From Leuctra nigra (Eukaryota > Arthropoda > Insecta > Plecoptera > Leuctridae), in assembly GCA_934045905.1 (NCBI GenBank), contig OW203768.1, positions 34,005,060 through 34,069,059 of the forward strand: DNA of 64,000 nucleotides. The letters are read 5' to 3'. Below are positions 1,418 to 21,305 of this stretch, piece after piece. The position numbers and the translations under genes were made by a program. Every line of letters starts with the position of its first letter. The stretch's first letter is position 1. Under the pieces are notes generated by a model. It ran no database searches, was not told the DNA's origin, and saw only the letters and a list, made by a program, of their open reading frames with translations.

Positions 1418-3442
1418 TTAATCTATCTCGCGTTGTGTTATTGACCGCAGGCTGATCTGCGGGTAAACCGTAAGGGCACGCGGAGTCCTTGGTACCATGA
1501 TGGAGGTCGACTGAGGGTGCATTTGTACCGGCACATAATGCGCGTCAGTCAGCGGTAGGTGGACCATTGGTTCGACTTCCGGGTCGCGTTGACGAGAATG
1601 CCCGCGAGGGTTTCGCACGCGCACATTCCTCACACATGTTAGAAATGAGAAAATAGACCTTCTTTTAATAAAAATGATTAACCCAATAACAATGAGTATT
1701 AGTAGCATATATGATCCATACGACAAGAAAGTGGCGTGAACTTCGACCCACGATGGAGTTTCCAAGTGCTCCAATTCGTACTTCCACTCCTCCAGGGAAA
1801 TAGGTCTCGTTGGTGATCCTACTGTTACCCGACGTGATATTATTTGCTCAATTTGTTTAGGGGTTCCAAAAACGGTTTTCACTCCCTCCACTGTATTATT
1901 AGATATAAGGTTTAAAATGTTCGAAATAGCCGGCAATCTATAAGTTAATTCAATTGCTGTTTCTATTGTTCGTGATGCGTGACTCATTAAAATATAGTTG
2001 TCAGAGGTCCCTTGACAATTCGGCTGCAGCGTGATCAAGCCACTACCTCTCAGCACTCTCACCTCCGAGGTAGGGGTCTCGAGCTCGCTTGACTTCGGAC
2101 AATAAATTGTCATGGTTGCCTCCATTGTGAAATATATCCAGGTATTGCTAGCTGGTTGTCGGTGAAAGAACGAAGGTGGATTGACAACCAGGACGTGGTC
2201 ACATAGCTGTCGCGCCGCATTGTCATCACCGACATATAAAGCGAGTAAACACGACTTCGCCGACGCCTTCGCTACCTCCTTGATGGGTGGGCAAATGGTA
2301 ACAATGCTCGATCGACATGATGACAAGTCCTCCGCGGAAAGTTGAATAAAATTTTGGTTGTCCTGAGTAATGCCGAAATATTGATAAGTTGATGCAATCA
2401 TGACTGAAACACTGTTATTATGGATTTGGTATGGCAGAGGAATTGCCTTAAAAAGGGTGAAAAACTTGTTTGCTACTTTAATCGGAATCTTGACAAACAA
2501 TCGCAGTCGATCCTCCAATGCTACCAACGAAACAGTGGACAGCTGGTAGTAGCTATACATTGACGACAAATCTAAGGGTGTAAGTAAACTTTGCCCTAAA
2601 GCCAAGTGAGGTTGGATAGATGTCAATATGCTCAACAAATTAGAAGGCGAAACAAAATAGCTGCTAAGTTTATTCAAGGAAGTAAGTGCCAAAGAGGTTT
2701 CGAAACGATTGATGTCCGTTTTAATAGTTGAAATTGAGTTCTCAACGACTCGCAGCGCCGATTGTAGTCGAAAAGTCAGTGTGGAGTATAGGTCAGTTTC
2801 CAGGATGTTCTCTGCTATCGCTTTCTGTGAAAGTCTTACCTCCTTCCACAGGTTTTCAAATTCCCCGGCCAAAATTTCTATGTCTTTCCTGTCCTGTAAT
2901 CCGGACTTTCGCGAGTCATTGATATAAGTAAGTTGTTGTTCCATAATGTGAGTAATTATTTGTGCATTATGCTCTAGTCTATTAATTCTTGTATTAGCCA
3001 TGTCTACATCTACAGTCTGTGACACTCCGAAGACGTACTTCAAAATTTTTCCACCAATGTCCATCAAGGCCCGTCTCCTACGTGGGAACAGGTTTGTATT
3101 TAGGGGGGTAACTGTCTGCATAAGGTCGTGCAACTGCCTTTGTACTAGGTTCCCTTGATCTCGTAAAACTGACAATTCTATCCTAACAGTGTTCTCTAAG
3201 GTTCTTGCATGGTCAGACTTGTTGTTGGTAGTCGGTTTGTGGACAAAGTCGTGAATGGCCTCGATGGAATCGCGGTACGTTGCCATTACGTCATTGTACG
3301 AGTGAACGTCAATGTCCACTGACACCAACCATTCAGTCCCCGTAAACAGAACTGTCTTCTCAAACGAGAAAAACAAACCCTTATCAAAAGCTGCAGCGGC
3401 CACCGCCACGATGGACAAAAGGACGAAGATAGATGATTGCAT
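1418..3442 (-). CDS. env: Envelope glycoprotein of errantivirus-like retroelement (baculovirus F-like)
   Basis: This is a 674-residue class I-type envelope precursor, expected to be made in the secretory pathway and to mediate membrane fusion. It starts with a hydrophobic signal peptide (about residues 1-18). A tetrabasic furin-like site lies at R121-R124, followed at once by a glycine-rich fusion-peptide-like segment. One membrane anchor spans about 572-592, followed by an 82-residue basic, then proline-rich tail. This layout is that of insect errantivirus Env and the baculovirus F protein family. The frame has no stops. The ATG at 3442 is chosen because the signal peptide starts there and a good splice acceptor (tttgttccag, AG at 3459-3460) lies 16 bp upstream, consistent with expression from a spliced subgenomic RNA. 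Fold and function are inferred from family layout. Confidence 0.85.
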   Translation of the reverse strand: MQSSIFVLLSIVAVAAAAFDKGLFFSFEKTVLFTGTEWLVSVDIDVHSYNDVMATYRDSIEAIHDFVHKPTTNNKSDHARTLENTVRIELSVLRDQGNLVQRQLHDLMQTVTPLNTNLFPRRRRALMDIGGKILKYVFGVSQTVDVDMANTRINRLEHNAQIITHIMEQQLTYINDSRKSGLQDRKDIEILAGEFENLWKEVRLSQKAIAENILETDLYSTLTFRLQSALRVVENSISTIKTDINRFETSLALTSLNKLSSYFVSPSNLLSILTSIQPHLALGQSLLTPLDLSSMYSYYQLSTVSLVALEDRLRLFVKIPIKVANKFFTLFKAIPLPYQIHNNSVSVMIASTYQYFGITQDNQNFIQLSAEDLSSCRSSIVTICPPIKEVAKASAKSCLLALYVGDDNAARQLCDHVLVVNPPSFFHRQPASNTWIYFTMEATMTIYCPKSSELETPTSEVRVLRGSGLITLQPNCQGTSDNYILMSHASRTIETAIELTYRLPAISNILNLISNNTVEGVKTVFGTPKQIEQIISRRVTVGSPTRPISLEEWKYELEHLETPSWVEVHATFLSYGSYMLLILIVIGLIIFIKRRSIFSFLTCVRNVRVRNPRGHSRQRDPEVEPMVHLPLTDAHYVPVQMHPQSTSIMVPRTPRALTVYPQISLRSITQREID

Positions 3443-3811: not shown

Positions 3812-6800
3812 TTATTTATTTTTCTTAACATAAGGGCGGGTATAGGAATAATCAACTGGGAATAATTGTCTCAGCGAGCGTCGAAGACTCGAGAAGCTAG
3901 CTGGATCAGACGGATGCTCAACAGTACTGTTGTCGGCAACTGTCGAGTTCTGAGGTAACGAAGCAGAAGGTGTGTCCGGTGTATGGCGGGCAACTTCATC
4001 GGCCATCTCATCCCTCAGCGATAGTGGTTGAACGTAAATGTCTCTGGGATCAAGTAGCTCCTCATCCACTGAGTAAGGATGGTTACCCGTAAACACAACG
4101 ACGGGTGTTGATTCAGCTAATATAGCGTCATCAAACCCGTCTCCTTCGCTCCGCTCTCTCGGTAGGACCACGTCTGACATGTCCGGCGTTTTAGCATGGC
4201 TTCCCAGAGTCATGTCAAGATTCATGTCACGCAAGTCAAACGTGTGAAAGATCTTGAGCCGGTTCACATGGACAAAGTGTTTAATCTTTGCGTTATATAA
4301 ATCTGTAATTTCGAAATTGACCTCTCCTGACCTTTCAGTCACGACATAAGGACCCCGCCATGTTGAATTGTGCTTACGTGATACCGGCTCTTTAAGCACT
4401 GGCGTGTATAGGTAAACTAGACTACCTATGTCAATAGTGACTGGTTTGCTCCCCCGATCGTAATATTTAGCGTTTCGCACTGCACTTTTACGTAGGTTGG
4501 TCCTGACGATTTCTAGTGCTATGCGCAACCTGTTATGAAGTTCAACGCAATAGTCACTCTTCACTTCATCGTCGTCAGCTCTCACGGGGGAGGTGCTACA
4601 ATCAAAAGGAAGCAGAGGGACGTATCCATACAGGGTGTAAAACGGACTCATGCCATGACTTGCGTTGACTGACACGCGCATCGCGAGCTGCACGTGGTCA
4701 ACCAGTTCATCCCACTCGGTGTTCTCATTCACGAGCTTAGCCAAAATGTCATTTATGACGGCATTCTGACGTTCGGAGGCCCCGTTTGCCATTGGATGGT
4801 AGGCTGTGGTCAATAGCCTTGGCACTTGCAAAAACGTGCATACTTCCTTAAACATTTTACTGCAGAAGTTTGGTCCTCTGTCGGAAAGCAAATTTTCTGG
4901 GCAAGAATGAGGGGTAATGACATGTTTAACAAACACGCGGGCCACCGTGATGGCGGTGGTGTTATGCACGGGTACAATGATAGTCCACTTTGTCAAGAGG
5001 TCAACAAAAGTCACCAAAAATCTATTGTTGGCCTTAGTGGGTCGGAACGGACCGCTGCAGTCCATTGAAAGTACTTGAAATGGGCGCTTCAACTCCGGCT
5101 CGAACTTCTGGAGGGGGGCTCGAGATGACGCTGGTTTCATCTTTCGCCTTTGGCAAGCCACGCATGACGCTACATATTGTTTGATGTCATTTGTCATGTT
5201 CTCCCAATAAAATCTAGTGGAGATGAGGTCAGTTGTTCGCATGACGCCTCCGTGACCCGATGTTGGAATATCGTGATGAGACTGTAGGATCTTATATCTC
5301 AAATCACTTGGGACGACGAGTCTGTCATTATGCGGGTATGTTCTGCATCTGACTCTGTATAACAGTTTCTCGTCGTCCAGCGCAAAGAGCGGGTCAGCGG
5401 AATTGTCTTCCATCAGCTTGTCAATGATTGGCTTCAGGAGTGGGTCCATCAGCTGTCTTGACTTAATATATTGCCGGTCTATTACTGGAATATATCGCAC
5501 TTCCTCATCTCCATCCTTGATTATGTTGTTTACACGTATTCTGGACAATGCATCAGCATGACGAATAGCCGAAGCACTCCTGTGCTGAATTTCATAGTCC
5601 ATTTCCGCCAACGCCAATCCCCACCTAGTCTGCCGTGCCGACGCCTTCGGAAGATTTGCTAAATATTTCAAGGCAGCATGATCTGTCACTATTTTTATCC
5701 TATTTCCATACAGATAACAGTGAAAAAATTTAATGCCAAACATCACTGCAGCCATTTCCTGTTCAGTAACTGTCATTTTCTGTTCACAATCACTACATTG
5801 GCGAGAAGCATAACCAATAGGCTTCTCGACGCCATCAATTAGCTGAGATAGGACCGCACCCATAGCGAATTTACTACAATCGGTTGTGAGAATGAACTGG
5901 AGGTCAAAATTAGGATAGATTAGGAGTGGGGGTGTTACAAGTTTCGATTTCAGAATTTCAAACGCTTCAGCCTGTGGTTCCCGCCATTCGAATTTAACTT
6001 CCTTCTTAGTCAGAAGCGTAATATTCTTCGCTATTGCTGCAAAATTTGGAATGAAACGGCGGTAAAAATTTACAAGGCCGAGAAATCTTCTAACTTCCTT
6101 AAGATTCTTCGGTGCGGGGTAATTTACTACCGCATCAACTATTCTTTTTGTAGGCTCAATTCCATCTGCTTTAATAATGTGACCTAAGTACTCAATCTCA
6201 GTTTGAATGAAGTTAGACTTTGCTAATTTTAACTTCAAATTCGCGTCTCGGAGTCGGTCAAAAATCTCTCTCAAATTGCTGATGTGCTGTTCTACCGACG
6301 GAGCAAAACAGATTAAGTCGTCCAAGTAACAAAGAACTTTTGTTGACAGGAGCCCCGTCATAACAGTGTCCATGAGTCGTTGCCACACTGAGGGCATGTT
6401 ACGCACGCCCATGGGTGCGAATAAATATTCGAAACACCCTTGAGGTACGACAAAAGCTGTCTTCTCTATACTGTTAGGATGGACTTTAATCTGATGGTAT
6501 GCTCGATGGAGGTCAAGGGTAGAGAAGTGCTTGGCGCCTGACAGTGCATCAATAGTGTCAAGTAGATTCGGCAACGGGTGGTTTTCTGGTTTTGTAACCT
6601 CGTTGACATCTGTGTAGTTACAGCAGAACCTATGCGTTACTTTTCCATTATCTGAACGCTTCAAAACAACGACTACAGGCGCCGCCCATGCACTGCGCGA
6701 CGGTCTTATGATACCTGATTCCAATTGTTCCTTTATTAGGTCATCTACTATCTTTCTCCTTGTGTGTGGCAGACGGTATGGCGGACGCCTCGAAGGTCGA

Positions 6801-9568
6801 GCATTACCAGTATCAATCTCGAACAATACTTTATCACAGCCCCCGAGTCGATCGCCAGGCAAAAAGAATACATCCGTATATTCACATATCAGTTTTTCCA
6901 TTGCCTCTTTGTCTTCTGGGCTCAGATGGTCTAGTTTTACTCCTTCTTTCACGAGTCTCTCTCTTTCTGCTTTACTTAGCGGCTCTGAAGAGTGGACCGC
7001 TCCGTCTACCTGGCCGTTGTTATTGTTGTGAATAGCAGCGACAATTTCTATAGGCGACTGGCCCTTTAAATCAATGTTTACTGTTTTGTCATGTAACTCG
7101 TCGATCTCATCATTGTATTCGAAAGGTAAAAGTTGTGCTACCCCAACCGTTGTGTTTGCAGGAATTTCGATTGCTTGAAACGATTTGTTGAGCAGTTTAA
7201 TTTGAATACAACCATCTTCACGTTCATAAGCAATACTTCGTGCGGCAGCAATACCATGTATACGGATGTCAGTCGGAACAAAGATGATAGGCCGGTCTAA
7301 TCTTTCTTCGCCTTTCAGGTAAAGCCGCCTCTTTTGTTTAGCAATAAGGATCTGTTCCGACCTTGATGGAATAATGGTTGTACCTATTACTCGTACATTA
7401 GTCTCAAAATCCTTATCTCCCTGTTTGCGAGTATTTTTACTTTTGTTTACTTTAGATGAAAGTTCCGTGCCTGTGCCAACTTGCTCCGTGCTTATGGACG
7501 TTTCTGCGACCTCATACAATGCCACCACGTCCGCGCTTCTCTCAAGTATTCTGTCATCTTTTTCACATTCGACATCAATGAGCTCCAGGGGCTCATCACT
7601 GTCATGGATTATGTGTGAGAGTTCGACGTCATCCGAAAACTCAATGATGTTTCCAGATGATTTGACGTCCTTCTGTGCTGACTTCGCCTCCACACATTCA
7701 CTGATTCCTACATTTGTCTTGACATCAAGATCCCATTCACGAACATTATCTCTGACTTGAGATTCGTTTCGTATGCTAATTTGAGTGCAATGTTCCACTC
7801 TTGCTCCGCTTCGCTTGCAATACATGCTCGTTTGAACACCCATGAGAATGTGTTCAGACGTTTCTGAAATTTTGGCGGCTCGTGTAACTCTTACATATAT
7901 GTCACAATCGCCCTCATCTATCTGGAAGGAATGACTGTCTCCTGAGATATTTGACAGTTCGACATCATCGTCATCTTCGTGAGTGATCATGGACGCTGTG
8001 ACGTCATCGTGTGATGTCTTTGCATCCGAATCTAACTCAGTGATTGTGACACTCGTGCCGAACTCTTCATCTGACAGTTCAGTTTCCATGTTTCTCTCAA
8101 CGACCGCCAGGTTTCGCACTTGCATGATCTCACCGTTTCGAGTGCTTGGTTGTTGACTCTCGATTTGAAAGTCACAATCTCTGCTCGCGGTGGAGATCGG
8201 GGGCGAATCCTGTGCAGATTGTTGAGGAAAGTCCCTGATAAACGCTGCTTGCCTAATTAACACAGCTTGTATAATCAACACATATAAATAGGCCATGATC
8301 TGCGCTAATGCATTACTCTGTGCATCAATATCTCCCCGTAGAGGCATGGATCCTTGCCTCTGAACCGAAGATATTGGGCTCTCGAACTCGACGAGCTCAT
8401 TCCTAGTCGAACTTGAAGTTCCTCGGGAAAGAGGATCATTGCTCGCAGGGCTGCAGTCCCTGGATGAACAACTTTCGCTTTCCTGCTGAAAGTCCTTGCT
8501 GACTGAAGAATTGACACTCATGCTTGAATTGAGATGCGCTACATTAGTACACAAAGTTACCGTAATATTAGATTCACACAATACATTATGAATCATCTTG
8601 CAGACTTTAGGCCATTTCTGTTTATCGCGTCCGCATCCCAATCTAGGGATCGAAATGGACGTCAACTTATGCCGCGACATGTGGTCTTTTAGAGCAATTA
8701 GGGTGCGTCGAATGTCAGCCAGTTGCGGCTTCTCGTGGTATAGGTTCTTTGTTACTAAATAGTAAATAAACCGTCCATCTTCTTCGACTGCACCAACATC
8801 GCCGACCTGTAACTTTTGTTGTCGGAGCAATGACACGTGCTGAAATTTATTCCTAAAGCGAAGAGCCAGACCTGCTCGAAGAGCGAGGTCCGCGGAGACA
8901 CAATTGACGATACTCTCACGTCTTGTTAAAAGTGAATCGTCGCATTTTGAAAATAACTTTTCAAATCTACCTGGTAAGGGTCGCTGTTTCTTCTTATACA
9001 CTTTCACTTTCCTTTTAGCTGCGGGCATCTTGTCGTGGATCGTGTTCTCGAGAACACTAGAAAATCTCACGCGCTTAACCATGCGTCTCTTGTCCTCGCC
9101 GTAGGGGAAAGTATTCTCCCCATCGACAATCAAGCGACGGACTCCGTCAATGCTAAGTGAAAAGTCCTGGAAAAAATCAAAGCCGAGGATGCCGTCTGAT
9201 TCACCGAGGTCCAGACTGTCATCGCTTACCAGGAATGGATATGAATAGTTTTTATTTCCTAACTGGAGTGTTAAAGTTGCCTCTCCGATAATTGGCAACC
9301 TTCCTCCCGTAACTGAATAAATGCGCCGATTGCATGGTCGAATTGGAACATTTCCCTGTTTCAAATTTCTCCCGCTGATAATAGAAATTTCGGCGCCACT
9401 GTCAAGCAGAAGCGTCTGGACGCTCCTCACACCGTTTGGAGAAATAAGAATGGCTGTGATTCTCGGCTTGACGCGTGTACGAAGTGGAGGATCAGCTATG
9501 TTGGAAAATACCCTCCCTTGAGCTGCTCGATCAACACAGGGATCTATGACGAGCCGCTCCCGAAATTT
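3812..9568 (-). CDS. pol: Ty3/Gypsy Pol polyprotein with inserted macro domain
   Basis: This is a very long frame without stops (open from 9826). The true Pol part begins at the frameshift site near 9568, which is residue 87 of the open frame. Domains in order, residues counted from 9826: aspartic protease (LLLDSGAE with D142, ILGFD near 213-217); basic patch (267-283); TARG1-like macro domain (about 288-427); acidic spacer (about 428-812); a beta-rich domain with an IPSRSEQ motif common in Gypsy Pol; reverse transcriptase (about 995-1250, YLDD near 1167); RNase H (TTDCSKF, TEQEMAAV, TDHAAL, HADALSR); integrase with the H-H-C-C finger and D, D, E residues in MDCSGP, SDRGPNF and GASERQN; and a GPY-like module (WRGPYVV, VHVNRLKIF). 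No chromodomain is seen. All catalytic motifs are present, so enzymatic competence is plausible. Confidence 0.93.
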   Translation of the reverse strand, partial: KFRERLVIDPCVDRAAQGRVFSNIADPPLRTRVKPRITAILISPNGVRSVQTLLLDSGAEISIISGRNLKQGNVPIRPCNRRIYSVTGGRLPIIGEATLTLQLGNKNYSYPFLVSDDSLDLGESDGILGFDFFQDFSLSIDGVRRLIVDGENTFPYGEDKRRMVKRVRFSSVLENTIHDKMPAAKRKVKVYKKKQRPLPGRFEKLFSKCDDSLLTRRESIVNCVSADLALRAGLALRFRNKFQHVSLLRQQKLQVGDVGAVEEDGRFIYYLVTKNLYHEKPQLADIRRTLIALKDHMSRHKLTSISIPRLGCGRDKQKWPKVCKMIHNVLCESNITVTLCTNVAHLNSSMSVNSSVSKDFQQESESCSSRDCSPASNDPLSRGTSSSTRNELVEFESPISSVQRQGSMPLRGDIDAQSNALAQIMAYLYVLIIQAVLIRQAAFIRDFPQQSAQDSPPISTASRDCDFQIESQQPSTRNGEIMQVRNLAVVERNMETELSDEEFGTSVTITELDSDAKTSHDDVTASMITHEDDDDVELSNISGDSHSFQIDEGDCDIYVRVTRAAKISETSEHILMGVQTSMYCKRSGARVEHCTQISIRNESQVRDNVREWDLDVKTNVGISECVEAKSAQKDVKSSGNIIEFSDDVELSHIIHDSDEPLELIDVECEKDDRILERSADVVALYEVAETSISTEQVGTGTELSSKVNKSKNTRKQGDKDFETNVRVIGTTIIPSRSEQILIAKQKRRLYLKGEERLDRPIIFVPTDIRIHGIAAARSIAYEREDGCIQIKLLNKSFQAIEIPANTTVGVAQLLPFEYNDEIDELHDKTVNIDLKGQSPIEIVAAIHNNNNGQVDGAVHSSEPLSKAERERLVKEGVKLDHLSPEDKEAMEKLICEYTDVFFLPGDRLGGCDKVLFEIDTGNARPSRRPPYRLPHTRRKIVDDLIKEQLESGIIRPSRSAWAAPVVVVLKRSDNGKVTHRFCCNYTDVNEVTKPENHPLPNLLDTIDALSGAKHFSTLDLHRAYHQIKVHPNSIEKTAFVVPQGCFEYLFAPMGVRNMPSVWQRLMDTVMTGLLSTKVLCYLDDLICFAPSVEQHISNLREIFDRLRDANLKLKLAKSNFIQTEIEYLGHIIKADGIEPTKRIVDAVVNYPAPKNLKEVRRFLGLVNFYRRFIPNFAAIAKNITLLTKKEVKFEWREPQAEAFEILKSKLVTPPLLIYPNFDLQFILTTDCSKFAMGAVLSQLIDGVEKPIGYASRQCSDCEQKMTVTEQEMAAVMFGIKFFHCYLYGNRIKIVTDHAALKYLANLPKASARQTRWGLALAEMDYEIQHRSASAIRHADALSRIRVNNIIKDGDEEVRYIPVIDRQYIKSRQLMDPLLKPIIDKLMEDNSADPLFALDDEKLLYRVRCRTYPHNDRLVVPSDLRYKILQSHHDIPTSGHGGVMRTTDLISTRFYWENMTNDIKQYVASCVACQRRKMKPASSRAPLQKFEPELKRPFQVLSMDCSGPFRPTKANNRFLVTFVDLLTKWTIIVPVHNTTAITVARVFVKHVITPHSCPENLLSDRGPNFCSKMFKEVCTFLQVPRLLTTAYHPMANGASERQNAVINDILAKLVNENTEWDELVDHVQLAMRVSVNASHGMSPFYTLYGYVPLLPFDCSTSPVRADDDEVKSDYCVELHNRLRIALEIVRTNLRKSAVRNAKYYDRGSKPVTIDIGSLVYLYTPVLKEPVSRKHNSTWRGPYVVTERSGEVNFEITDLYNAKIKHFVHVNRLKIFHTFDLRDMNLDMTLGSHAKTPDMSDVVLPRERSEGDGFDDAILAESTPVVVFTGNHPYSVDEELLDPRDIYVQPLSLRDEMADEVARHTPDTPSASLPQNSTVADNSTVEHPSDPASFSSLRRSLRQLFPVDYSYTRPYVKKNK
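8546..8965 (-). other. TARG1/OARD1-like macro (ADP-ribosylglycohydrolase) domain within Pol
   Basis: About 140 residues between protease and the acidic spacer align in order with the OARD1/TARG1 branch of macro domains: a core with NCVSADLALRAGLA, then GRFIYYLVTK, then SIPRLGCGRDKQKW, then a final beta-strand ITVTLCT. In the human enzyme, Lys84 and Asp125 remove ADP-ribose from glutamate or aspartate. Here the equivalents are K360 (in LVTK) and D401 (in GCGRD), both retained. Its likely activity is ADP-ribose binding or removal of ADP-ribose from proteins. The domain sits in a position where Gypsy polyproteins usually have only linker. Family assignment is by motif recognition. Activity, and whether a cellular gene was captured, are inferences. 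Confidence 0.82.
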
Positions 9569-10188
9569 GTCGTCGCAACAGGCGCCGTCGGCGCCGACGT
9601 CGAAACGCCCGGTCCAGGGATCGGCGCCCGGGACTGGCTCTGCGATCTCTGTTCCCTGTTGTGAATGTACCTGCCATTCTCCACGCGTCCCGACGGCGCT
9701 ACGTCCTGGTACTGCGCCGCTCGTTTCCAGCAGGTGTCGTCGACATGCCCAAAGCCGCCGCAGAATGAACAGACACAGTCTCTGTTGACGCGGCAAAACC
9801 GTGCGGTGTGTCCTTGCTCTCCGCATCGGTAACAGACCTGTGGGCGCCGGTCGTCGTATCTCCTGTTGTTCTGCCGTGGGGCGCCCCGACGCCCTTGTTG
9901 ATTATTAGATGACGGCTGATTATTTGATGGCGTCTGTCCTGCCTTCAGCGTGGTGATCAGCTCGCCCATCACGGCGCACAGAGCGGTAATGGCAGGGATC
10001 TCATTTGATGTTGACGACGACGGAGGGTCACGAGCTGGTGACTGATTCCTTGGCGTCGCCCTCGACGTCGGACACCCAGATGCATAGTGTCCTGCTTGAC
10101 TGCACGAGCTGCAGGTGACCTGGCTGGCCATGACTCCGGGCTTAGGCAATGTAGTGAGGTGCGCGACGAGCAGCTCCTCCTCCATCAT
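9544..10188 (-). CDS. gag: Gag, C-terminal nucleocapsid part (N-terminus missing)
   Basis: The 214-residue frame contains three perfect CX2CX4HX4C zinc knuckles at about residues 26-39, 119-132 and 140-153, the mark of a retroelement nucleocapsid that binds genomic RNA. Low-complexity Ser/Pro/Gln/Asn linkers separate them, with an RG-rich basic patch before the second. No capsid-like region precedes the first knuckle: an in-frame stop lies about 40 bp upstream of the first ATG, and the next 0.7 kb has no gag-like frame. The gene therefore appears 5'-truncated, or its first part was lost by rearrangement; the ATG at 10188 is only the first Met of the open frame. It overlaps pol by about 280 bp and ends just after the frameshift site. 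Classical Drosophila errantivirus Gags lack such knuckles, as I recall. Confidence 0.8.
   Translation of the reverse strand: MMEEELLVAHLTTLPKPGVMASQVTCSSCSQAGHYASGCPTSRATPRNQSPARDPPSSSTSNEIPAITALCAVMGELITTLKAGQTPSNNQPSSNNQQGRRGAPRQNNRRYDDRRPQVCYRCGEQGHTARFCRVNRDCVCSFCGGFGHVDDTCWKRAAQYQDVAPSGRVENGRYIHNREQRSQSQSRAPIPGPGVSTSAPTAPVATTNFGSGSS
9562..9568 (-). promoter_or_regulatory. -1 ribosomal frameshift site (A AAT TTC) joining gag and pol
   Basis: The minus strand reads A AAT TTC in the gag frame, a canonical X XXY YYZ slippery heptamer, six codons before the gag stop at 9544. Slipping back by one enters the pol frame exactly (KFRERLVIDP). Two bases downstream, GAGCGGCTCG (9550-9559) can pair with CGAGCAGCTC (9520-9529) with one mismatch across a 20-base loop, a plausible stimulatory hairpin. 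The frame relation (gag to pol = -1) was checked from the coordinates. Confidence 0.8.
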
Positions 10189-10880
10189 CCGGACGCGCTC
10201 CTTGCTGCTCCCCGTGACTTCCCTAGGTCATGAAGATAGTCATCACACACTGATCGGTTATACTATAGTATTTATTACTTAATCAACTTACAATGTTCTG
10301 GTACAGACGGTCACTTCGAAGATGTGGACTGGTCACTCTCACTTCCTGATCTTGACTACCCTGATTCCAATGTCAAAAACTCTGGTCCAGCAACGCCATC
10401 CAAGTCTTAGCGCCCACCCCTCCTGCATAAGGGCTCATCTCATTGGTTAAGCCCTATGCAAGATTATCGATGATTGGCCTCTAAGATTTGTATGCAACTG
10501 ACATCTAACGTTATGCCGCCGTCCAGATGCATGCTAGTTTGACAATGTAATCCTCCCCGCTGAGTGTCCGGTGTAGAGAGACAATGTTCTTAGCGTGAAA
10601 AGGCATCTGCACCCGAATCAGGGTGCATTGATAAAAACTAATAAAGTACATTTTATGGGACGTTTCCCAGGAATCTGAAAAGCAACTGCAAGTAACTAAA
10701 TGTGTGATGTCACATAACTTTGTAAATCAATAAGAGCCAACTAAGGCTACACTGCATTCCATGAACGTATTGAACATGAACAATGTTATCTTGCAGCTGG
10801 TCAAGCTAAGAATATAAGAACTATTGAATTGAACATCGGCTACTCTTGATGAATAACGAAAGCCTAGTGGTTTCGTCACA
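10189..10880. other. Junction between truncated gag and viral island; possible LTR or leader remnant
   Basis: This is non-coding on both strands. Read on the minus strand it shows a TGTCAAACTAGC start near 10540, a taataaatac polyadenylation-like signal near 10265-10275 and a donor-like attgtaagttg near 10290, a layout reminiscent of an LTR followed by a leader. No second copy of this sequence is visible near the env end, and no primer-binding site of the TGG type is evident, so an LTR cannot be confirmed. The right end (10881) is the sharp edge of the inverted repeat. Confidence 0.3.
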
Positions 10881-11534
10881 TGTAGTCTTCGGCGGTGGAC
10901 CTTCGCGAATCCTCTGCAGAGAGCCCGCAAAACAAAGTGCATAGAGTCTGCTTTTACTTTCCAGAACTTCGACGCTTATCATGATACAGGGTTTGATTTT
11001 AAAAAGATGTTCAATTGTTGCTTGCTCGAGAAATATACTGTTTCCACCGTTGATTGGCTTGATGCCTACTACAGATTCACCATTTCTTAGCTCGGTTGTG
11101 AATAATACATTAGGGCCAATAGTTCTCGAAGCAAAACTTACTTTAAAAGGTTCGAAAACATTTACGTAGGCGACTGATAAATCACTGTAGAACTGGATCC
11201 ATTCTTGCGAAGAAAAGTATATTTTATCTTCGCATCTTGATGACAGAGTAACAACGGCCAAGAACGCCTTCAGAGGGTCCGCTCCCACGATGACACTTTG
11301 TGTTTTATTAAGAGTAAATAGTCTATTCATTACCGTTGAAATGTCTTCTTGTTTCACGTTCACCACACTTTCTTCAACATCACTCGGCCCATGTGATACT
11401 TCAGCACTCAGTTTAAACATATTGCTTGTTTGGATATTGGAATCAAACTGACTCTTTACAGCTCTTTCGAAAAGGTGCAGTAGAGGGAGACACCGGCGCC
11501 TGCATGCACTATACAAAAGAGGAGTAAGTTTCAT
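10821..11534 (-). pseudogene. Gene B, truncated left copy
   Basis: The first 218 residues are identical to the complete gene B at 16860-17753, but at the arm edge (10881) the sequence switches to unrelated DNA, giving about 19 junk residues before a stop at 10821. The lost part is the acidic segment and the C-terminal helical module seen in genes A and B. Its promoter region within the arm is the same as that of the intact copy, so it may still be transcribed. The protein is unknown. Its core motifs (MNRLF, GADPLKAF, FSSQEW, ATIEHLFKIKP) are shared with gene A. Confidence 0.75.
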
Positions 11535-12434
11535 TGTGAATGATTATGCACTTGATTACCCTTCAGTGATTTTCTTTAGACACCCCAAACTATTTCTCTT
11601 CTTAAACAATAGAAGCGAAGGTGCGCCATCCTAACCCTTAGAAAATCAGGTCAGACGACAGCGTGAGAAGTGGGTTATAGGATTCTACGTCACACGGAGG
11701 ACAGCGAATAGCAAAGCTCGAAATGGGAATAGGGGTGTATACATTTAAGGATATGTCCACTAGCCAGACGTTACAGAATATGCGCATAGGTCTTTGCGCA
11801 TCATTTGTCTTTGTATATTGGTCAGAAATGTAACAACAATCTGTTTTATATTGTCACCGTCAGAAATTAGCTGTGGCGAACGCTGTTTTAGCATCAAATT
11901 TATATATTCAGTTAAAATATTATGTGAATGTTCTCATTGCAGAATATAATATTGATGAGATTGTTGAAAACATTTAAATATTGATGTTATATATGATATA
12001 GGAAAAGGATAGGTGTACTCAATGACAAGGCAGATTCCCAGTTAACCAGTATAATTAAATTCAAATTGATACATTACATTCATGAAAATATATTGAGAGA
12101 GACATACATCTACAATTATTCACTCGAAACTTCTTCACACTGTGGCACTACTATTATTCAATTATCATCTATATATCATCTTTAATCAAATTCGACGTCG
12201 CTTTACCTATACTATACACTATATGGATTGTACTTAATCTTCAAATGTTCTGATCCGCTTTTGCGCAATTGATTCCATTTCATTATTGCTACATTTAAAT
12301 ATTACACATTCTTTATTTTCCACCATCCTTGTTGAGTAAGCATACCATCAATGTTCAATTCAAGCATGGCTATTCTGACTCCAATGGGAACTCCGATGTC
12401 TTTAAACCGGCTCTGCCATTTCTCTCTGACTGAG
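10881..12434. repeat. Left arm of 1,554 bp inverted repeat
   Basis: This is the reverse complement of 15960-17513. Paired positions keep a constant coordinate sum (28394) at every point I compared (gene starts, gene stops, intergenic DNA), so there are no net indels, and I saw no mismatches in the stretches read. Homology ends abruptly at both edges. The arm carries a truncated gene B, its upstream region, the 3' flank of gene A and the last part of gene A. Confidence 0.95.
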
Positions 12435-13003
12435 AGTTCCAGTAACGCATTGTCTTTATTCATTTCTCCAGGGCGATTAGGTTTCACAAGGAGTTCTTCC
12501 TCGTCGTCTCCTTCTTGTTTTACCATGGGTGGTTGGTTAGTAAGTTGAAAAGTGTTGAAAATATTTACAAACCACTGTTTATACATTTGACTGCAATTCC
12601 TCATTTCCTCAATACATAGGTTAATACTTGGAATTAATTTTACAAGATGTTCAACTGTAGAAACCGCTAGTAGCATCTCCTTACTGTACCTTGATTTGAC
12701 AGATACACAAGGACCATATGTAGCCTCAGATATGAAAATGGTGTGTGACGCACACACGCCACCCATATATAATTGTCTTAACCTATGATTTGCAACAGCG
12801 TCCCTTGCTTCAACTATTAAGGGATGTACAGATAACCATTCATCTGCAGAGAAACTCACTTTAAAGCCCTCTTGTGAACCTAGAATGATAACCGGTTGAA
12901 ACTCTTTTAAGGGATGCACACCTACAAGTATGTGCTTACTGCGAGAAGTACTTAGATAAAACAATCGGTTCATGATAGTTGGTACGTCATTCTGTTGAAC
13001 CAT
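12302..13003 (-). CDS. Gene A: unknown protein, paralogue of gene B
   Basis: The frame is open from 13051. A strong splice-acceptor-like sequence (gcttgttttag, AG at 13029-13030) lies inside it, so the Met at 13003 or an upstream exon is the likelier start. Aligned with gene B it shares TIMNRLF, VGVHPLKEF, FSADEW, a GP-V-S-K strand pair, STVEHLVKLIPSI, and the C-terminal module with VREKWQSRF, MLELNIDGML and QQGWWK. I do not recognise the family. Alternating strands around a conserved core would fit a small nucleic-acid-binding fold, but that is speculation. The last 43 residues lie inside the left arm and so occur again at 15966-16092. Context is a DNA-virus-like element with DNA polymerase B. 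Confidence 0.65.
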   Translation of the reverse strand: MVQQNDVPTIMNRLFYLSTSRSKHILVGVHPLKEFQPVIILGSQEGFKVSFSADEWLSVHPLIVEARDAVANHRLRQLYMGGVCASHTIFISEATYGPCVSVKSRYSKEMLLAVSTVEHLVKLIPSINLCIEEMRNCSQMYKQWFVNIFNTFQLTNQPPMVKQEGDDEEELLVKPNRPGEMNKDNALLELSVREKWQSRFKDIGVPIGVRIAMLELNIDGMLTQQGWWKIKNV

Positions 13004-13663: not shown

Positions 13664-13985
13664 ACACAATGTACAACACAATACACACAGTGTACAACGC
13701 AATGCACACCATGTACAACACAATGCACACCATATACAACACAATGCACACAATGTACAACACAATGCACACAATATACAACGCAATGCACACAATGTAC
13801 AACACAATGCACACAATGTACAACACAATACACACAATGTACAACACATTGCACACAATGTACAACACAATACACACAGTGTACAACGCAATGCACACAA
13901 TGTACATCACAGTGCACACGGTGTACATCACAATGCACACAGCGTACAACACAATACACACAGTGTACAACGCAATGCAAGCAGT
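13664..13985. repeat. 21 bp minisatellite (about 15 units)
   Basis: Tandem units of the type tacaacacaatgcacacaatg with scattered substitutions. Because the unit is 21 bp, several frames on both strands stay open: the plus strand gives repeated MYNTMHT, the minus strand gives Cys/Val-rich repeats. The plus-strand frame runs without a stop into the polymerase B block that follows. Confidence 0.95.
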
Positions 13986-13989
13986 GCAA

Positions 13990-14413
13990 TTACCTGCTAC
14001 CTTTACAAATATCAATCATATTTTAGTGAAAGATAGGAAGAAGAAACAACTTACTGAGGAGATGAAATTTAAGATTCATCTTGTTATATCTAAAGTAGAT
14101 CATATTATATTTAGAAATGCTGTTGTATGTAGAATTTGTAGTAAACCACTAAATGGAGATCGCGTCTGTGACCATGACCATATGTGTGTTAGTTTCAGAG
14201 AAGCAGCCCATAGCACATGCAATGTAAACTCTGTTCAAGCAAAACATATACCTGTTGTGTTTCATAATCTACGTGAGTACGATTCTCATTTGATTATGAA
14301 GGAAAACGGTATTTCAGTAATTCCAAATAACATGGAAAAGTATATCTCCTTCACTTTCGGTCGATTAAGATTCATTGATTCATTCCAGCTCATGAGCACA
14401 TCATTGGAATCAT
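13990..14413 (+). pseudogene. DNA polymerase B (Polinton/viral type), first block
   Basis: The frame shows a recognisable part of the organellar/viral DNA polymerase B family (DNA_pol_B_2, protein-primed type): a CRICSKPL...GDRVCDHDH segment, the FREAAHSTCN stretch, then IPVVFHNLREYDSH and MEKYISFTFGRLRFIDSFQLM, the usual order in Polinton, adintovirus and bidnavirus polymerases. It is open from the minisatellite to the transposon insertion at 14413. The N-terminal exonuclease start is not visible. The enzyme would replicate a linear protein-primed genome. This copy is dead because of the insertion and later stops. Confidence 0.85.
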
Positions 14414-15320
14414 AGTTGAGCGAGCGTAGCGAGCGTCACCACGGTACTCTTATGGCACTTTCTGTGTGTGTGTTTTTTTGTTTTTTTGCCTGCACTGCCC
14501 AGGTCAAACCGCACAACCAATCGATCTGAAATTTTGTACACATACTAACGTAATCTATGCGATCCCTGGGATCTTTTCTGAACGGGATCCTGTGATTGGT
14601 TCAAATTTTATAAAAATTATCTTTCGATTGGTTGGTTCGATCAATTTGAAATTTAGCAAAGTCATTGCAACCAACATTGTACCCAATCAAAAAAAAATTC
14701 AGCCAAATCCTCCAATTGGTTCAAATTTGAAACCATTTTTCCTGTGATTTTTGAAATTTAAACTGGAACCGATTGACCGACCAACTAAAAACTTCGCATG
14801 GTCATTGGTACCAACAATTAAGGTATTTTTTGACAATTTTCACTCTAATCTGTCGTTATTTTCAAAAGTTTTTGTCATTTTAGGGACATTTTGCATGTTG
14901 GCTGTCAAATTCACGGCGACTTCGAATCTACAGTTCAAGGCAAGGTAGTTAGAGCGAAAGTTTTAAACGATATGAAACTAATAATGACCGTTCAACCATG
15001 GTTCAACAGATTGATCTGATATTGTGTACACACACTACATATCATATCATATGGGTGGTCCCAGGTATATTTTTTGAACGAGATCCTGTGATTTTTGAAA
15101 ATTAACAAGGAACCGTTCAATCATATAGGTTTAATCGATCAACTTAAAACTTAGCAAGGATAAGCACCAATATTTTTGGAGATGTTGGAGATATTTATAC
15201 AAGTATGTGACGAAACTAAAGAATTATTGGCTTTTAATGACATTCGATAGACATAATTTCGGTTCGAGGTGTTGCGTGTATCCGTGCTCGCTCATCAACG
15301 CGTTACACAGAGCGTTTTCC
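14414..15320 (+). mobile_element. 0.9 kb non-autonomous transposon inserted in polymerase B (family H, copy 1)
   Basis: The block begins AGTTGAGCGAGCGTAGCG and ends with a small hairpin (AACGC...GCGTT) followed by TTTTCC, then TAGT. It matches 40135-40933 along its length. Polymerase B coding resumes in frame directly after it, and the flanks fit an insertion between two T residues with no target duplication. This, plus the 3' hairpin and lack of inverted repeats, is reminiscent of Helitron/Helentron elements, though a TC start and clean CTRR end are not consistent between copies. It has no coding capacity. Confidence 0.7.
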
Positions 15321-15950
15321 TAGTAAACAACCTTAGAAAGGACGTTTCAAGTAAATTCACTATGTTAAAAGAATGATTTGATTCTGATTCCCTCCCACCT
15401 CTGTTGCGTAAATGAGTATTTCCATATAGCTATGTCGATTCTGAGGGAAAGCTGATGGAAAGTTCTCTACCTCCTAAGTTTGCCTTCAGGAATGATCTCA
15501 CTGGAGATGAAATCTCCAATGACGATTACAACCATGCACATGAAGTGTGGAGGAAATTCGAAATATCAAGCATCGGTGAGTACCTACCAGGATCTATACA
15601 TCACCACTGGTATTCTCTTGCTTGTCGATGTATTTGAGAGTTTTCGTAGTCTGTGTCTGTAATTCTACTGCACCGACCCCCTGTCATACGTTCAAAGCTC
15701 CAGGATTAGCCTCGTAGAGTTTCTTGAAAATGACATATGCTCGTCTGGAGCTCATTACTGATCTCGATATGTATCTGATTGTCTTTCCAACCAACCAATT
15801 TAGTCTAAGCTCTCCAATCAGCACCGTTCATTATAGAAATATAGATTTTCTTGATTATTTTCTTAATTAATTTTCTTAAAACATGGAGAAACAGAATAAC
15901 TCTGTCTATGTTCCTAACTGAGTTCAATTCGATGGGTTATAGGTTTTGTA
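15321..15950 (+). pseudogene. DNA polymerase B, second block (decayed)
   Basis: This continues the polymerase directly after the transposon: a VNNL segment, a FPYSYVDS motif, SLPPKFAF, NDDYNHAHEVW, then LYITTGILLLVDVFESFR and LELITDLDMYL, all in the family's usual order. It carries in-frame stops (for example near 15375 and 15410), a frameshift near 15590 and more damage after 15650. A last weak match to the polymerase motif A region runs up to the right arm of the inverted repeat, so the arm edge cuts the gene. It is non-functional. Confidence 0.8.
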
Positions 15951-15965
15951 CTGCAATTACTCAGT

Positions 15966-16092
15966 CAGAGAGAAATGGCAGAGCCGGTTTAAAGACATCG
16001 GAGTTCCCATTGGAGTCAGAATAGCCATGCTTGAATTGAACATTGATGGTATGCTTACTCAACAAGGATGGTGGAAAATAAAGAATGTGTAA
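15966..16092 (+). pseudogene. Gene A C-terminal fragment in right arm
   Basis: About 42 codons (REKWQSRFKDIGVPIGVR onward to QQGWWKIKNV and a stop at 16090-16092) match the end of gene A on the other strand. The rest of the gene is absent because the arm begins here and joins polymerase B sequence. Confidence 0.85.
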
Positions 16093-16859
16093 TATTTAAA
16101 TGTAGCAATAATGAAATGGAATCAATTGCGCAAAAGCGGATCAGAACATTTGAAGATTAAGTACAATCCATATAGTGTATAGTATAGGTAAAGCGACGTC
16201 GAATTTGATTAAAGATGATATATAGATGATAATTGAATAATAGTAGTGCCACAGTGTGAAGAAGTTTCGAGTGAATAATTGTAGATGTATGTCTCTCTCA
16301 ATATATTTTCATGAATGTAATGTATCAATTTGAATTTAATTATACTGGTTAACTGGGAATCTGCCTTGTCATTGAGTACACCTATCCTTTTCCTATATCA
16401 TATATAACATCAATATTTAAATGTTTTCAACAATCTCATCAATATTATATTCTGCAATGAGAACATTCACATAATATTTTAACTGAATATATAAATTTGA
16501 TGCTAAAACAGCGTTCGCCACAGCTAATTTCTGACGGTGACAATATAAAACAGATTGTTGTTACATTTCTGACCAATATACAAAGACAAATGATGCGCAA
16601 AGACCTATGCGCATATTCTGTAACGTCTGGCTAGTGGACATATCCTTAAATGTATACACCCCTATTCCCATTTCGAGCTTTGCTATTCGCTGTCCTCCGT
16701 GTGACGTAGAATCCTATAACCCACTTCTCACGCTGTCGTCTGACCTGATTTTCTAAGGGTTAGGATGGCGCACCTTCGCTTCTATTGTTTAAGAAGAGAA
16801 ATAGTTTGGGGTGTCTAAAGAAAATCACTGAAGGGTAATCAAGTGCATAATCATTCACA
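16093..16859 (+). promoter_or_regulatory. Intergenic region upstream of gene B
   Basis: This 767 bp gap holds the 3' flank of gene A (16286-16400) and the upstream region of gene B. The last about 100 bp before the ATG include a gcgcacc...ttctattgtttaagaag block repeated in diverged form at 18096-18166, so it is a good candidate promoter or leader. A short inverted pair (tgcgca...tgcgca) lies at about 16593-16614. Confidence 0.5.
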
Positions 16860-17753
16860 ATGAAACTTACTCCTCTTTTGTATAGTGCATGCAGGCGCCG
16901 GTGTCTCCCTCTACTGCACCTTTTCGAAAGAGCTGTAAAGAGTCAGTTTGATTCCAATATCCAAACAAGCAATATGTTTAAACTGAGTGCTGAAGTATCA
17001 CATGGGCCGAGTGATGTTGAAGAAAGTGTGGTGAACGTGAAACAAGAAGACATTTCAACGGTAATGAATAGACTATTTACTCTTAATAAAACACAAAGTG
17101 TCATCGTGGGAGCGGACCCTCTGAAGGCGTTCTTGGCCGTTGTTACTCTGTCATCAAGATGCGAAGATAAAATATACTTTTCTTCGCAAGAATGGATCCA
17201 GTTCTACAGTGATTTATCAGTCGCCTACGTAAATGTTTTCGAACCTTTTAAAGTAAGTTTTGCTTCGAGAACTATTGGCCCTAATGTATTATTCACAACC
17301 GAGCTAAGAAATGGTGAATCTGTAGTAGGCATCAAGCCAATCAACGGTGGAAACAGTATATTTCTCGAGCAAGCAACAATTGAACATCTTTTTAAAATCA
17401 AACCCTGTATCATGATAAGCGTCGAAGTTCTGGAAAGTAAAAGCAGACTCTATGCACTTTGTTTTGCGGGCTCTCTGCAGAGGATTCGCGAAGGTCCACC
17501 GCCGAAGACTACACCTGAAGAGTACTGGGAAATGTTTCACGAAGAGCTGATTTCAGACAGTGACGATGATTCTTTCATTGACGATTATTCTTTTATTGAA
17601 AGTGTACCTCCAAAATCGTTTGCAAAAAAGTGGATCAACGCATTTGAAGATCAGGACATTCATTTTAGTGTACGTGAAGTGATGATGGAGTTGGATATAG
17701 ACAATATTTTAGAGCACCAAAGTGGCTGGTGGGATGCTTTTTCTAATAATTGA
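16860..17753 (+). CDS. Gene B: unknown protein of DNA-virus-like element, complete copy
   Basis: A 297-residue frame with no recognised family. Residues 1-70 are a basic, then low-complexity N-terminus. A core of about 70-215 shares motifs with gene A (ISTVMNRLF, VGADPLKAF, FSSQEW, ATIEHLFKIKP). An acidic stretch (SDSDDDSFIDD) lies near 235-248, and a C-terminal module of about 255-297 (KKWINAF, VREVMMELDIDNIL, SGWWDAF) corresponds to the gene A end (MLELNIDGML, QQGWWK). The gene is intact while the neighbouring polymerase is dead. Its 3' flank (17756-17875) resembles that of gene A, indicating that gene plus flanks were duplicated as a unit. Function unknown; DNA or RNA binding would be a guess. 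Confidence 0.75.
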   Translation: MKLTPLLYSACRRRCLPLLHLFERAVKSQFDSNIQTSNMFKLSAEVSHGPSDVEESVVNVKQEDISTVMNRLFTLNKTQSVIVGADPLKAFLAVVTLSSRCEDKIYFSSQEWIQFYSDLSVAYVNVFEPFKVSFASRTIGPNVLFTTELRNGESVVGIKPINGGNSIFLEQATIEHLFKIKPCIMISVEVLESKSRLYALCFAGSLQRIREGPPPKTTPEEYWEMFHEELISDSDDDSFIDDYSFIESVPPKSFAKKWINAFEDQDIHFSVREVMMELDIDNILEHQSGWWDAFSNN

Positions 17754-18695: not shown

Positions 18696-18850
18696 TAATT
18701 GACCGGAAGTAATGATGATTGACAGGTGTAATTGACCGTGTGATTATGAGTGACAGGACAATAGGCGGAACCCTTTGACTAATTGACCGTGACTAATGAT
18801 GATTGACGGCGGCATCCTTTGTTGGACCAGACTGCCATGCATACTACTTC

Positions 18851-19765
18851 TGTGGACTAGCAATGAGATGCTCGGTGTGGGTGGGCCCTGCAGTGGCGTA
18901 GGGTCTATAACAGTTTCACAAGCAGTGGCGTAGCGGACATACAGGAGTCACATGACCCTGGCGCGCTGTGCGCATGTGCGATGTGTCTGTGGACTAGCAA
19001 TGAGATGCTCGGTGTGGGTGGGCCCTGCAGTGGCGTAGGGTCTATAGCAGTTTCACAAGCAGTGGCGTAGCAGACATACAGGAGTCACATGACCCTGGCG
19101 TGCTGTGCGCATGTGCGATGTGTCTGTGGACTAGCAATGAGATGCTCGGTGTGGGTGGGCCCTGCAGTGGCGTAGGGTCTATAACAGTTTCACAAGCAGT
19201 GGCGTAGCGGACATACAGGAGTCACATGACCCTGGCGCGCTGTGCGCATGTGCGATGTGTCTGTGGACTAGCAATGAGATGCTCGGTGTGGGTGGGCCCT
19301 GCAGTGGCGTAGGGTCTATAACAGTTTCACAAGCAGTGGCGTAGCGGACATACAGGAGTCACATGACCCTGGCGTGCTGTGCGCATGTGCGATGTGTCTG
19401 TGGACTAGCAATGAGATGCTCGGTGTGGGTGGGCCCTGCAGTGGCGTAGGGTCTATAACAGTTTCACAAGCAGTGGCGTAGCGGACATACAGGAGTCACA
19501 TGACCCTGGCGTGCTGTGCGCATGTGCGATGTGTCTGTGGACTAGCAATGAGATGCTCGGTGTGGGTGGGCCCTGCAGTGGCGTAGGGTCTATAACAGTT
19601 TCACAAGCAGTGGCGTAGCGGACATACAGGAGTCACATGACCCTGGCGCGCTGTGCGCATGTGCGATGTGTCTGTGGACTAGCAATGAGATGCTCGGTGT
19701 GGGTGGGCCCTGCAGTGGCGTAGGGTCTATAGCAGTTTCACAAGCAGTGGCGTAGCGGACATACA
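18851..19765. repeat. 137 bp tandem repeat, 6 full copies plus a partial
   Basis: Copies start at 18851, 18988, 19125, 19262, 19399, 19536 and 19673, an exact 137 bp period. Differences are only a few transitions (gcgcgctgtg/gcgtgctgtg, ataacag/atagcag, one cggacat/cagacat). Each unit contains gcagtggcgtag twice. The last copy stops after about 93 bp where the next array begins. Confidence 0.97.
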
Positions 19766-21305
19766 ACACTGACTGTCTCTAACTGACTCCAACTCTCCCT
19801 AACTGTCTCTAACTGTCTCCAACTGTCCCCGACTGTCCCCGACTGTCCTTAACTGTCACCAACTGTCTCCATTTGTTTTCAACTGTTACCATCTGTCTCC
19901 AACTGTCCCCAACTGTACCTAACGGTCTCTAACTGTCACCAACTGTCCCCAACTGTCTCTAACTGTCTCCAACTGTTACCATCTGTCTCCAACTGTCCCT
20001 AACTGTCTCCAACTGTCCCCCATTGTCCAAAACTGTACCCAACTGTCACCAACTGTCTCCATTTGTTTTCAACTGTTACCATCTGCCTCCAACTGTCCCC
20101 ATTTGTTTTCAACTGATACCATCTGCCTCCAACTGTCCCCAACTGTACCTAACGGTCTCTAACTGTCACCAACTGTCCCCAACTGTCTCTACCTGTCTCC
20201 AACTGTCCCTAACTGTCTCTAACTGTCTCCAACTGTTACCATCTGTCTCCAACTGTCCCCCATGTCCCCAACTGTACCCAACTGTCACCATCTGTCTCCA
20301 ACTGTCCCTAACTGTCTCCAACTGTCCGCCATGTCCCCAACTGTACCCAACTGTCACCAACTGTCTCCATTTGTTTTCAACTGTTACCATCTGTCTCCAA
20401 CTATCTCCAACTGAACCAAACTGTCTCTAACTGTCTCCAACTGTTACCATCTGTCTCCAACTGTCCCCATTGTCTACAACTGACCCCAACTGTCTCCAAC
20501 TGTCCCCAACTGCCTCTAACTGTCTCCAACTGTCTCCAGCTGTCCTTAACTGTCTCCAACTGTCTCCGCAACTATCTTGAACTATATTCATCTGTCTCCA
20601 ACTGCACCCAACTGTCTCCAACTGTATCTAACTGTCTCCAACTGTCTCCGCAACTATCTTGAACTATATTCATCTGTCCCCAACTGTACCCAACTGTCTC
20701 CAAATGTCTCCAGATGTCTCCAACTTGCCCCTACTGTCTACAACTGTCTCCGCAACTATCTTGAACTATATTCATCTGTCCCCAACTGTACCCAACTGTC
20801 TCCAACTGTCATTAACTGTCTCCAACTGTCTCCGCAACTATCTTAAACTATATTCATCTGTCCCCAACTGTACCCAACTGTCTCTAACTGTCATTAACTG
20901 TCTCCAACTGTCTCCGCAACTATCTTGAACTATATTCATCTGTCCCCAACTGTACCCAACTGTCTCCAAATGTCTCCAGATGTCTCCAACTTTCCCCTAC
21001 TGTCTACAACTGTCTCCAAGTGAACCCAACTGTCTCCAACTGTCATTAACTGTCTCCAACTGTCTCCGCAACTATCTTGAACTATATTCATCTGTCCCCA
21101 ACTGTACCCAACTGTCTCCAAATGTCTCCAGATGTCTCCAACTTTCCCCTACTGTCTACACCTGTCTCCAAGTGAACCCAACTGCCTCCAACTGTCCCCA
21201 ACTGTCCCCAACTGTATCAACTGTCTCCAACTGTCTCCAGATATCGCTATTTTTCCACTACTGTCTCCAACTGTCCCCGACTGTCCTTAACTGTAACCTT
21301 AACTG
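19766..21305. repeat. 1.5 kb array of 10 bp unit (aactgtctcc)
   Basis: Degenerate 10 bp units (aactgtctcc, aactgtcccc, aactgtaccc). From about 20568 a higher-order unit appears, marked by gcaactatcttgaac at 20568, 20650, 20752, 20834, 20916 and 21068 (spacing mostly 82 bp). Open frames here are repeat artefacts. Confidence 0.95.

Follow-up and report, generated by a model that had tools for sequence, protein, structure and literature searches.

The window analysed here, a stretch of 64,000 nucleotides of Leuctra nigra (Plecoptera; assembly GCA_934045905.1, contig OW203768.1, positions 34,005,060 to 34,069,059), harbors a Gypsy retroelement with Gag, Pol and Env frames, and its Pol contains a macro domain of the TARG1/OARD1 type between the aspartyl protease and the reverse transcriptase (RT), as listed in Table 1. 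A preliminary description made from the sequence alone had placed such a domain in an uninterrupted Pol frame, and this was borne out by 140 stop-free residues within a frame of 2,004 amino acids; the claimed position between protease and RT likewise follows from the order of the Pfam domains, the protease match being weak and under its cut-off. The protease region of the window can be aligned with that of L040, a further Gypsy Pol of this genome whose protease match is over the Pfam cut-off. The order of protease, RT, RNase H and integrase is that of Ty3/Gypsy elements, as are the CCHC zinc knuckles of Gag, and the Env of the baculovirus F type, in which a basic RRRR stretch followed by a hydrophobic one was recognized by eye, is characteristic of Errantivirus-like elements (Gypsy with Env). 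In the Pfam scan the window Pol matched integrase and RNase H but no endonuclease, so that the frame is not of the type of the first open reading frame (ORF1) of long interspersed nuclear elements (LINEs).

Table 1. Features of the Gypsy element in the window (positions of the window; Pol residues in brackets; cut-offs are those of Pfam).
Feature	Position	Strand	Remarks
Env, Baculo_F family (PF12259)	1418..3442	-	674 amino acids; Pfam 123.1 bits
Pol open frame	3812..9826	-	2,004 amino acids, stop-free; stop-to-stop extent reaches 9901
Integrase core rve (1581-1678)	4793..5086	-	Pfam 40.8 bits
Integrase zinc-binding H2C2 (1505-1563)	5138..5314	-	Pfam 78.2 bits
RNase H, RT_RNaseH (1307-1408)	5603..5908	-	Pfam 102 bits
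Reverse transcriptase RVT_1 (1068-1218)	6173..6625	-	Pfam 97.9 bits
Segment between macro domain and RT (805-905)	7112..7414	-	No Pfam match; aligns to L040
Long linker (428-800)	7427..8545	-	Acidic/Ser-rich by eye; no Pfam match
TARG1/OARD1-like macro domain (288-427)	8546..8965	-	140 residues, stop-free translation
Codon of Asp401, putative equivalent of TARG1 Asp125	8624..8626	-	Alignment
Codon of Lys360, putative equivalent of TARG1 Lys84	8747..8749	-	Alignment
Aspartyl protease region (131-218)	9173..9436	-	Pfam 20.7 bits, weak, cut-off 24.3
Gag C-terminal frame with CCHC zinc knuckles	9547..10227	-	227 amino acids; Pfam CCHC 28.5 bits; overlaps Pol in another frame

The isolated macro domain of the window (P0001) has human TARG1 as its top match, with 97.9 bits and an E-value of 3.6e-27 over residues 13-139 in an ungapped phmmer alignment, followed at a distance by the DarG macrodomain (entry 5m31, 23.5 bits), PARP15 (14 bits) and PARP14 (12 bits), and it is thus closer to TARG1 than to the other macrodomain classes. 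The generic Pfam Macro model remained at 15.1 bits (E 0.023), under its cut-off of 22. The bacterial DarG macrodomain belongs to the same class and has the equivalent catalytic Lys, but it is less similar to the window domain and stands in an antitoxin context, and the NCBIfam DarG model gave 54 bits, far below the 250-bit cut-off that is meant for the whole DarG. The domain differs from human TARG1 (OARD1, C6orf130), to which it is 35% identical, in being embedded in a retroelement Pol and in carrying a 6-residue insertion. A macrodomain fold across the whole domain was observed in the predicted structure; the single-sequence prediction was poor (pLDDT, the predicted local distance difference test, of 55), yet all 8 of the 8 PDB matches at E ≤0.001 were TARG1. 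Residues were mapped by the phmmer alignment together with the numbering of the PDB entry (model residue 140 corresponds to TARG1 151), and by this mapping K360 and D401 of Pol (K73 and D114 of P0001) are the predicted counterparts of the catalytic Lys84 and Asp125 of human TARG1, in agreement with the pairing proposed earlier. The roles of both TARG1 residues in catalysis are described in parts of PMC9411070, and that of Lys84 also in parts of PMC8501950.

The whole 536-Mb genome was searched with the domain, and the best 150 of 345 candidate matches were scored, all with E ≤1.8e-16. Stop-free translations were observed for 142 of the 150, a proportion that leans to well-kept copies because only the best matches are included. 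Among these 150, the closest to the window domain is L038 (42% identity, 105 bits), followed by the Gypsy element L040 (40%, 100.3 bits). L040 and L041, located on two contigs with frames of 1,638 residues, contain protease, macro domain and RT in the same order as the window, with 36% identity to the window Pol over the protease-macro part and 35% over the linker-RT part, the linker after the macro domain being shorter in L040; the two differ at 4 of 3,414 bases, which suggests that this family transposed recently. An additional family, L046, has a frame with protease and macro domain that ends before the RT. A genome search with the protease region alone gave 82 places, 66 of which were paired against 31 chosen macro rows; at 27 of the 66, the window's included, the protease was followed on the same strand, after 81-684 nt, by a macro match, and in 21 of these 27 pairs the protease and the macro match had open frames of equal length. 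This search also gave a Gypsy family with 2136-residue frames, in which 12 rows have the same frame length and the same score and one more row has 2138 residues; one copy of the family was read (L057, C2:25761000-25762300), and it contains the macro domain, with 101.7 bits to the macro-domain profile built for this analysis. The protease-macro-RT arrangement is therefore firmly established in this genome, within a diverse lineage of Gypsy elements, given L040/L041, L046, the 27 of 66 protease places and the 2136-residue family. An assembly chimera or single odd copy, which had been named as an outcome that would overturn the preliminary description, is ruled out by the 150 scored matches, L040/L041, the 82 protease places and the 27 pairs.

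The earlier picture of a single element was right as to a Gypsy Pol carrier and incomplete as to the genome, where several Gypsy families and LINE ORF1 frames carry such a domain. Of the eight places in the genome that score highest with the Pfam Macro model, four (L005-L008) are in LINE-type frames, and 20 regions around Pfam Macro places were surveyed, two of them at places already sampled. In the eight ORF1 frames scanned, macro matches over the cut-off were observed in all eight, esterase matches in four (SGNH/GDSL type; L014 and L020 over the cut-off, L017 and L028 under it), PHD matches in three (at or under the cut-off) and a SAP match in one, while endonuclease and RT matches (E ≤0.01) were found in all seven of the subsequent frames scanned. 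The L013/L014 family retains the Lys/Asp dyad, as do L017 and L020, and L028 does not. These macro-esterase frames resemble the window Pol in having a TARG1-like accessory domain within a retroelement, and differ in having it in ORF1, before the APE endonuclease and the RT. L038 and its kin share the macro domain with the window (42% identity for L038), but have a SAP domain; in L038 SAP and macro (18.6 bits, under the cut-off) lie in a frame of 533 residues with no protease match. Long in-frame tandem repeats were seen by eye after the macro domain in the LINE-type ORF1 frames of L010, L012, L013, L014, L022 and L023. Eight contig ends of the genome were inspected for telomere repeats, and none turned up.

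Both Lys and Asp were kept in 28 of 30 distinct aligned domain rows, four of them from three Gypsy elements or families (the window counted twice) and 26 from LINE or unassigned frames, and the other two rows, with Arg and Glu, belong to one LINE family; with L057 added later, the count is 28 of 31. These rows lean to well-kept copies, because they are partly the best query matches and only loci covering at least 105 profile positions were included. When macro domains were compared in seven distant pairs, the proportion of silent differences (pS) was 0.74-0.88, which is saturated, against a proportion of replacement differences (pN) of 0.18-0.43; the pair L038/L049 had a ratio of replacement to silent substitution rates (dN/dS) of 0.11 at a dS of 0.74; and of five near-identical pairs, three had dN/dS of 0.14-0.29 with few changes and two had no silent change. 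With silent sites saturated and replacement differences low, the protein sequence is, as far as these substitution patterns indicate, constrained between families.

We consider it about evenly probable (roughly 0.5) that the TARG1-type macrodomain of this Gypsy lineage with Env is maintained as a mono-ADP-ribosyl hydrolase by which host marking of the element is undone. The domain would be made with Pol and so be packaged with the element RNA, RT and integrase, and Lys360, activated by Asp401, would free ADP-ribose from an acceptor of the kinds reported for TARG1, Asp/Glu of a protein or a thymidine of DNA. Phosphates of nucleic acids may be a further acceptor. Host ADP-ribosylation of element proteins, of RNA or cDNA, or of chromatin at new copies might thereby be reversed. 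Hydrolase activity, substrate, packaging and anti-host purpose are all inferred. The chemistry of TARG1, the effects of Drosophila PARP-1, the action of SIRT6 and the viral structure matches, taken together, let this role appear the most likely. In its favor, too, are the TARG1 match and predicted fold, the dyad kept in 28 of 31 rows, the constraint between families, the 142 stop-free translations among the best 150 matches, the 27 of 66 protease places with a macro match, and the 4 differences in 3,414 bases between L040 and L041. TARG1 removes ADP-ribose from acidic residues (parts of PMC4695847) and, in a Lys84-dependent manner, from DNA thymidine (parts of PMC8501950), and the mammalian L1 is silenced by SIRT6 through mono-ADP-ribosylation of KAP1 (parts of PMC4695847). 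According to passages of PMC7712786, eight mobile elements were significantly misregulated in Drosophila parp-1 mutants, five up and three down, with three of the eight from the gypsy superfamily, and ten further elements went up but failed the error threshold, nine of them of the gypsy superfamily. Among the viral predicted structures of BFVD, the best model matches include VP8 of Kadipiro virus and proteins of thrips-associated flavi-, virga- and negev-like viruses; no match was obtained when viral contigs were searched with P0001. ADP-ribose-removing macrodomains of some RNA viruses are known counter-defences. A broader proposal, which we hold tentatively and with less confidence, is that ADP-ribosylation forms a general host barrier to retrotransposition in this lineage and that retroelements of the LTR (long terminal repeat) and the non-LTR kind acquired TARG1-type hydrolases to counter it, as some insect RNA viruses would have done. 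Such acquisitions may even have been so frequent that mobile elements now own the greater part of the TARG1-like coding sequence of this genome. Since the dyad is present in 28 of 31 rows and the protein sequence appears constrained, the Gypsy Pol and LINE ORF1 carriers within one genome make restriction of endogenous retroelements by ADP-ribosylation, and the counter-attack, testable, with families of intact and degenerate dyads as natural comparisons.

Several observations weigh against a maintained hydrolase. The window domain lies on a long branch (1.7), has a 6-residue insertion near its N-terminus and has Asn at a site where most relatives have His; only the window copy itself is near 100% among the best 150 of 345 matches, the next being 42% identical, and with no near relative, selection on this copy alone is not measurable. 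The repeat search gave no LTR pair flanking the element, and neither the capsid part of Gag nor a longer upstream frame was found as far as 10873, so the window copy may be dead. L057 keeps the Lys, has Gly for the Asp and shows a degenerate glycine loop, so that hydrolase activity should not be taken for granted in all carriers; in the LINE family L006-L008/L011/L028 the dyad is replaced by Arg and Glu. On the host side, the authors of PMC7712786 allow an indirect cause for the effect in parp-1 mutants. Parts of PMC4441479 report that in human cells ZAP/PARP13 restricts L1 although the PARP domain of ZAP has no activity, and that overexpression of PARP1 left L1 uninhibited, which counts against a simple PARP story.

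The missing Asp of L057, the one copy read of its family, and the LINE family without both Lys and Asp would also fit an ADP-ribose reader, a rather unlikely alternative in which the domain would recognize ADP-ribosylated chromatin or sites of DNA damage and anchor the integration or ribonucleoprotein complex there, with catalysis secondary or lost. Such a role would also suit the ORF1 frames that join the macro domain with PHD (three of eight, at or under the cut-off) or SAP (one of eight, and L038), both of which are chromatin or DNA binders. Retention of both catalytic residues in 28 of 31 rows is, however, beyond what binding alone should require, and the damaged glycine loop of L057 should impair binding too. 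The degenerate dyads of some families and the lack of detected LTRs for the window copy could, moreover, be explained by neutral cargo, a captured domain that is merely decaying slowly, which we regard as very improbable because the protein sequence is kept while silent sites are saturated, 142 of the best 150 of 345 matches are stop-free, and the domain is present in both LTR and non-LTR elements.

Within the preferred reading of a hydrolase acting on host marks, a narrower form is that LTR and non-LTR elements alike have to clear ADP-ribose from RNA or single-stranded cDNA of their own, in the way that DarG and TARG1 clear it from DNA. It would suit a domain shared by both kinds of element, but we think it unlikely, as a host enzyme putting such marks on the cDNA of elements is not known to us, although no search for one was made, and the same fold works on Asp/Glu-linked ADP-ribose (parts of PMC4695847).

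Three bacterial rows were chosen as the root of a domain tree with 52 members, L057 not among them. The tree included frog, salmon, flea, thrips, beetle and nematode rows and many metagenome proteins, and was poorly resolved, with 13 of 49 inner branches starred. Tests of a single clade were not rejected for Gypsy (p-AU, the p-value of the approximately unbiased test, 0.78), LINE (0.76), Gypsy plus LINE (0.82) or Gypsy plus LINE plus endogenous retrovirus (ERV; 0.69), and since all four stand, they say nothing for or against one origin. As the domain has the same place in the Pol of these elements, a single capture may underlie the Gypsy lineage; against this counts that L038, the closest domain to that of the window among the best 150 of 345, has no protease match. 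The capture was probably from a cellular TARG1. A recent capture from a LINE of the same genome is unsupported, the identities to 12 LINE-type domains being 27-35% and that to human TARG1 35%; an old capture from a LINE is conceivable. The best other match, the SAP-macro frame L038, reaches 42%, just ahead of the Gypsy L040. The tail of a beetle protein (P0108) was also compared with the pre-integrase stretch, and at 2.5 bits the match was too weak for any claim.

Searches of proteins with Pol residues 285-430 or P0001 alone gave no match at E 1e-3, and a profile search gave 221 matches, of which the best 120 were looked at, 19 of them whole and domain parts of more. Among these proteins, P0038 and P0042 have, as the window does, a TARG1-like macro domain fused to a retroelement Pol, but there it follows an integrase C-terminal domain of the murine leukaemia virus (MLV) type, whereas in the window it precedes the RT and does not directly follow such a domain. 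In P0046 the macro part alone is present. The only precedent met in the literature search comes from fish, in which, as mentioned in PMC4977317 with reference to Basta 2009, endogenous retroviruses have macro-domain ORFs, and retroelement macro domains are thus not wholly new; our guess is that P0038 is this fish case. Capture of esterase and exonuclease domains (parts of PMC5408684) and of viral helicases (parts of PMC5563155) by retroelements follows the same principle, with some of these domains shared between classes, and concerns other enzymes than macro domains. The word macro is absent from the main text of PMC5408684 and PMC4120745, and the literature search, in which subscription papers were incompletely covered, gave no report of Gypsy or LINE elements with a macro domain, nor of one of the TARG1 type in LINE ORF1 or in a Gypsy Pol between protease and RT.

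On the Gag side of the window element a separate repeat starts at 10873, so that this end of the element may have been lost. The repeat consists of inverted copies of 1.57 kb (10873-12444 and 15949-17521) that are 99.6% identical and about 3.5 kb apart, and an ORF at 16860-17753 with no Pfam match extends into one of them. An ORF on the plus strand at 13669-14415 has a tandem repeat with a 21-bp unit and, after it, a stretch that weakly resembles recombination endonuclease VII (21 bits, below the cut-off); similar sequence may occur beside DNA polymerase B of viral or Polinton type. Farther along, the window has a tandem array with a 137-bp unit and 98% matches (18849-19765) and a second array of a degenerate 10-bp unit (19772-21285).

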